Of a DNA stretch of 43,518 nucleotides, positions 35,143 to 35,743 are shown one piece after another. Location of the stretch: contig JAHDHC010000010.1 in NCBI GenBank assembly GCA_020631485.1, positions 1 through 43,518 of the forward strand. The letters run 5' to 3'. The notes beneath the pieces are model-generated. The model worked only from the letters and a program-made list of their open reading frames with translations. It did no database searches and had not been told where the DNA came from. Source of the DNA: Candidatus Altimarinota bacterium (GTDB lineage: Bacteria > Patescibacteriota > Gracilibacteria > BD1-5 > UBA6164). Position numbers and translations under genes: made by a program. How positions within the stretch are numbered: position 1 is the stretch's first letter; each line of letters opens with the position of its first letter.

Positions 35143-35236
35143 AGAGAGCTTAGATGTTTTGGAGCTTTTGCATTTATAGATATGAAATAAAATCATGCTA
35201 ATTGTTGCGAAACTCTAAAAATCAATATAATTACGA

Positions 35237-35700
35237 GGCAAAAGCAGGTATCTATCGCGCAGTATTGCGGGAAGGAAAGTCTGGACACCGTGGAAACAGC
35301 CTAGAAGATAACGACTTCGCATGGAGGTAAATACATAAGCCTTCATGACAGCAAGTGCCGCAGAGACTATACTAGTTTATTGTCATTCTGATCTTGACAC
35401 AGAATCTTTATGAGATCCTGAATCGAGTTCAGGATGACAGTTGACGAAAGGTGAAAAGTCATTGGGTGTTGCACGGATTGATTATACAACTTGTTTGTAT
35501 GTAAATCTCTGTAGCGACTGATGATCCCTTACAGTGATGTAAGTGTGGTGGTAAACCTTAGGTGGTGCAATGGGAATGGTCCCGCAATAGGTTATTGTTT
35601 CCTATCGCCTAGAAGCGGGATACTCAGCTTGAATCTATAAGTGATTATAGATCTAGATAGATTGATATCGAGGTACAGAATCCGGCTTATTACTTTTGTA
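35237..35700 (+). ncRNA. rnpB: RNase P RNA
   Basis: The catalytic RNA that removes 5' leaders from pre-tRNA. Conserved blocks appear in order: GGAAGGAAAGTCTGGACACCG, cut here as GGAAAGTCTGGACACC (P4 5' side), then ACAGCAAGTGCCGCAGAGAC, GGTGGTAAACCTTAGG and ACAGAATCCGGCTTAT (P4 3' side). The ends pair through CAAAAG (35239-35244) and CTTTTG (35693-35698), giving P1. About 460 bases, longer than the usual 350-400 because of a palindromic insert (35381-35439). The precise ends are estimated. Confidence 0.93.
35381..35439. repeat. Palindromic repeat inserted in the RNase P RNA
   Basis: TGTCATTCTGA (35381-35391) and TCAGGATGACA (35429-35439) pair with one mismatch, and the middle adds CAGAATCT/AGATCCTG. 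It resembles the GTCATTCTGA...TCAGGATGAC palindromes found scattered between genes in many bacteria. Here it lies in a variable arm of rnpB, between conserved blocks. Confidence 0.7.
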
Positions 35701-35703
35701 ATT

Positions 35704-35743
35704 AAAAATTGTCTTATAACTTGATTAGTTGGCAATTTTTTTT
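35704..35743 (+). terminator. Terminator of rnpB
   Basis: AAAAATTGTC and GGCAATTTTT (with one G-T pair) and a T-run, just after the last paired base of RNase P RNA. Confidence 0.72.

Follow-up and report, generated by a model that had tools for sequence, protein, structure and literature searches.

A dispersed palindromic repeat within the P12 arm of rnpB, the gene for RNase P RNA, in a Gracilibacteria genome

The window analysed here, a stretch of 43,518 nucleotides from a Candidatus Altimarinota bacterium (Gracilibacteria), carries a long palindrome within the gene for an essential RNA, which raises the question of whether this is a normal helix of that RNA or a repeat that has been inserted into it and, if the latter, how the RNA could have accommodated such an insert.

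The rnpB gene and its extended P12 arm

The gene, rnpB, is located at 35236-35705 on the forward strand and encodes a class A RNase P RNA; the Rfam model RF00010 is matched over its full extent (positions 1-367 of 367) with 146.7 bits and an E value of 2.3e-45, against a gathering threshold of 100. It is present as a single copy in this 1.21-Mb genome, a draft of 27 contigs, and at 470 nt is longer than the corresponding genes of 53 members of the same order (336-448 nt).

Within rnpB, the imperfect palindrome TGTCATTCTGATCTTGACACAGAATCTTTATGAGATCCTGAATCGAGTTCAGGATGACA occupies exactly 59 nt at 35381-35439 (no strand assigned) and, in an Infernal alignment to the RF00010 consensus, appears as additional sequence at the P12 tip. 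It is comprised of an inverted pair of half units: the left (26 nt, 35381-35406, reverse strand), made up of an 8-bp hairpin and a foot, was given 39.1 bits by the repeat model R1 and the right, GATCCTGAATCGAGTTCAGGATGACA (35414-35439, forward strand), 44.7 bits, both having been in the training set of R1 so that these scores arise partly by construction. A DNA search that made no use of R1 also matched the right half unit to copies in a relative, G044, at 97% over 29 nt. Beneath the insert there remains a basal P12 stem, in which GUUUAU (35375-35380, forward strand) is paired in the fold with GUUGAC (35440-35445, forward strand) with one U-U mismatch, and the arm as a whole is predicted to fold into a single extended helix with interruptions (-32.8 kcal/mol, z -5.75), a stability equalled by none of 200 shuffles. 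No target duplication is visible at the insert in rnpB.

P12 is described as variable, and as dispensable in some bacteria (PMC2858038). When measured between the conserved J11/12 strand and GTGAAA, the P12 spacer is 77 nt long in this genome, compared with a median of 20 nt and a maximum of 49 nt in the rnpB genes of the 53 order-mates, the minimum of 5 nt (L079) being a motif artefact; removal of the 59 nt leaves 18 nt, a normal length. A pattern consisting of the conserved strand followed by TGTCAT matched just one of 77 genomes of the order, namely this one. As the 53 relatives have a short P12 free of the palindrome, insertion is the better reading of the arm. The initial annotation had described a 59-base imperfect palindrome in a variable arm of rnpB which lengthened the RNA and spared its core; each of these points was borne out at the level of sequence. 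An arm common to every relative, which it had named as the sign of a normal helix, was not seen among the 53.

The repeated unit and its copies

The element can be described as two 26-nt REP-like units in inverted orientation, each an 8-bp hairpin accompanied by an unpaired TGACA foot, with the consensus GATYCTGAAnCAAGTTCAGRATGACA. Among 17 distinct units from this genome and its relatives, changes on both sides were found in four of the eight stem pairs, 97.8% of the cells were paired and the covariation score was reached by none of 500 shuffles; this supports the predicted hairpin of the unit, although most of the 17 were chosen with a hairpin-like search pattern, which itself favours pairing.

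A second full copy of the palindrome is present in the same genome (81% over 58 nt, E 2.8e-9), and its recurrence both here and in relatives shows that it is not a product of chance and is of the repeat type, as had been claimed. The count of genomic copies which had been proposed as a check gave seven confident units at four loci: two each in rnpB, in cysS and in the gap between rplJ and rplL, and one in htpG. A weaker additional unit lies at C16:9105-9154. The rplJ-rplL gap (L005:1427-1529, contig C14) holds two half units in inverted orientation, 50 nt apart.

Relatives carry from none to dozens of copies, the best match being that of 97% over 29 nt, and the repeat is thus dispersed among and within genomes. 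Counts of the half-unit pattern were above those of a reversed-pattern control in many relatives, for example 57 versus 0 in G044 and 65 versus 0 in G066, and the DNA search gave more than 20 copies in one relative. The genome of G044 also contains dense mosaics of several types of palindromic repeat (L092, L093), including GTCATTCCTGC...GCAGGAAT and TTCGCTCGCGATGACGG forms. No Rfam family was found for the repeat, matches to FtrB being weak and far below the gathering score.

Copies in protein genes and the reading of TGA

Copies of this family are found in frame in conserved protein genes. The copy in cysS (C14:62955-63009) lies within a stretch of 65 residues, compared with 40-41 in insert-free relatives; the CysS of G036 has a unit of the palindrome family at the matching site, and those of G012 and G045 have other inserts there. 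The loop between DFALWKA and GRPGWHIEC is an insertion hot spot; in several genera (L169, L172, L175, L176) it holds differing repeat-like inserts, giving 54-81 residues against 40-41 without. The CysS of this genome (L003 885-2471, contig C14) seemingly has, near KPLTPLSGGTASSPDKGNGGVSSE and after the KMSKS region, another insert which keeps the frame and belongs to a different, CCCCT-rich type of repeat. The unit in htpG is likewise in frame and is a likely insertion, less sharply shown than that in cysS because it lies in a linker of variable length. Among the reading frames of relatives that run across a unit and show matches to conserved families are ileS (twice), thrS, queA and mfd, in addition to cysS. 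The ileS frame of G006 (L045:3-2927) has an apparent histidine-phosphatase-like domain inside the synthetase at residues 264-401, and a palindromic unit near residue 500.

TGA encodes glycine in this genome, and the frames of both CysS and HtpG are open only when it is read through. No stop interrupts any of the six frames of the half unit when code 25 is applied; with the standard code, three of the six are open. We hypothesise that TGA-as-glycine eases in-frame insertion by removing stops from most frames of the element. A broader proposal, that in TGA=Gly bacteria reassignment opens most frames of a widespread palindrome, so that repeats which are ordinarily intergenic come to be carried within genes for proteins and RNAs and land preferentially at sites such as the P12 arm of rnpB and a single CysS loop, is put forward tentatively and we regard it as rather doubtful.

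Origin of the insert and comparison with known systems

The explanation which we consider very probable is that a non-autonomous palindromic mobile element, the inverted pair of 26-nt REP-like units, was inserted, in an ancestor of this genome, into the loop of what was then a short P12 hairpin in rnpB, and that it is a passive and tolerated passenger. A copy would have landed in that loop and have turned P12, formerly a helix of only a few base pairs, into an interrupted one of about 29 which leads away from the core. As the element is self-complementary, P12 would simply be extended, and as this extension points away from the core, RNase P should still fold and work; an insert which only lengthens a peripheral helix could thus be tolerated. 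The element would be part of the mature RNA and probably neutral for RNase P, and it may be either selfish or neutral in general, the same family entering protein genes in frame, probably helped by the reading of TGA as glycine. Mobility by transposition is the presumed source of the copies. The copy number in this genome is low (four confident loci) and does not by itself point to recent activity.

It is improbable that the inserted hairpin is instead excised or processed from the precursor to give a two-piece or shortened RNase P RNA, as happens with intervening sequences of rRNA. RNase III could act on so long a helix, and candidate-phyla bacteria often have inserts in their rRNA genes; however, the element joins P12 without strain, there is nothing in the sequence that calls for processing, and the frame-keeping copies in cysS, htpG, ileS and queA argue that the family is normally retained. 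Lineage-specific growth of a normal helix, selected for RNase P function and resembling the repeat by coincidence, is highly improbable: the length of P12 does vary among bacteria, and three relatives have arms of other sequence that are longer than usual (33, 43 and 49 nt), but the insert here is a repeat found at other loci of this genome and in many relatives, both of its 26-nt units match the family, foot included, and the reading is largely refuted by these matches, since no ordinary helix would have a 29-nt stretch 97% identical to repeats scattered through a different bacterial family. An error in which the assembler placed a repeat in rnpB has next to no probability, for whilst the genome is a draft of 27 contigs, the rnpB copy has no identical counterpart among those found in it (best 81%), lies inside a contig with complete rnpB on both sides, and leaves a P12 of normal length when removed.

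To return to insertion of a mobile element, a Y1 transposase was considered as the mobiliser and rejected; the Y1 genes are few, present here and absent from the copy-rich G044 and G036, and do not track copy number. The four Y1 loci inspected had no unit in their vicinity.

When the genome_contigs collection (84,980 species) was searched for TCAGRATGACA lying a short way upstream of the P12 3' strand, 64 stretches were returned. By sequence signature and according to cmscan, only two of these are rnpB, one from a member of the Flavobacteriaceae (L122) and one from a member of the Terriglobales (L132). Both have a CAGGATGACA-type hairpin in P12, and the respective genomes contain 4 and 38 occurrences of the end motif, against none in the control; model R1 gave no score to the L122 repeat and a weak score to that of L132. 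These two would be insertions in P12, as judged from the repeat itself. In the remaining stretches, the second half of the pattern was taken to be matched by chance, next to either the repeat or something unrelated.

The view in the initial annotation that insertion into an essential RNA is unusual needs to be softened, as there are precedents in the RNase P RNA and tmRNA of Rickettsia and in cyanobacterial rnpB. Rickettsia palindromic elements (RPE; Ogata 2000, 2002) are alphaproteobacterial, are 105-146 bp long and occur in tmRNA and M1 RNA, the RNase P RNA, both of which are reported in PMC2229807 with reference to Ogata 2002. The element described here resembles RPE in its features, being palindromic, non-autonomous, dispersed in the genome and present both within conserved protein genes, where it keeps the frame, and in rnpB, but differs in being 59 nt long, comprised of two 26-nt units and from a TGA=Gly bacterium. 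Tandem repeats inside cyanobacterial rnpB are also on record (Vioque 1997, cited in PMC2858038). Such STRR of heterocyst-forming cyanobacteria are, like our element, genomic repeats within rnpB, but they are short tandem repeats whereas the latter is an inverted repeat. Their site in rnpB is reportedly P12. The REP/BIME of gammaproteobacteria are as a rule extragenic and are mobilised by cognate RAYT transposases. Like our element, they are built of a short hairpin unit which has a conserved foot left unpaired and which occurs singly or as inverted pairs; copies here, however, also lie inside genes, and no RAYT is linked to them, none of the four Y1 (TnpA-REP) loci examined being flanked by the repeat. 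In the literature, nothing was found that bears directly on the rnpB palindrome, the motif itself, repetitive elements in P12 or palindromes of Gracilibacteria.

Palindromes in RNase P RNA are thus already known, and the interest here lies in a lineage new for them, in its use of code 25, in which conserved genes are struck and in P12 as a recurrent landing site. Intragenic palindromes, familiar chiefly from Rickettsia and Wolbachia, are thereby extended to a lineage with code 25. This points to a link, open to testing, between the reassignment of a stop codon and the tolerance of intragenic repeats. The P12 tip appears to have taken up repeats in several phyla and may be a naturally safe place for inserts within an essential ribozyme.
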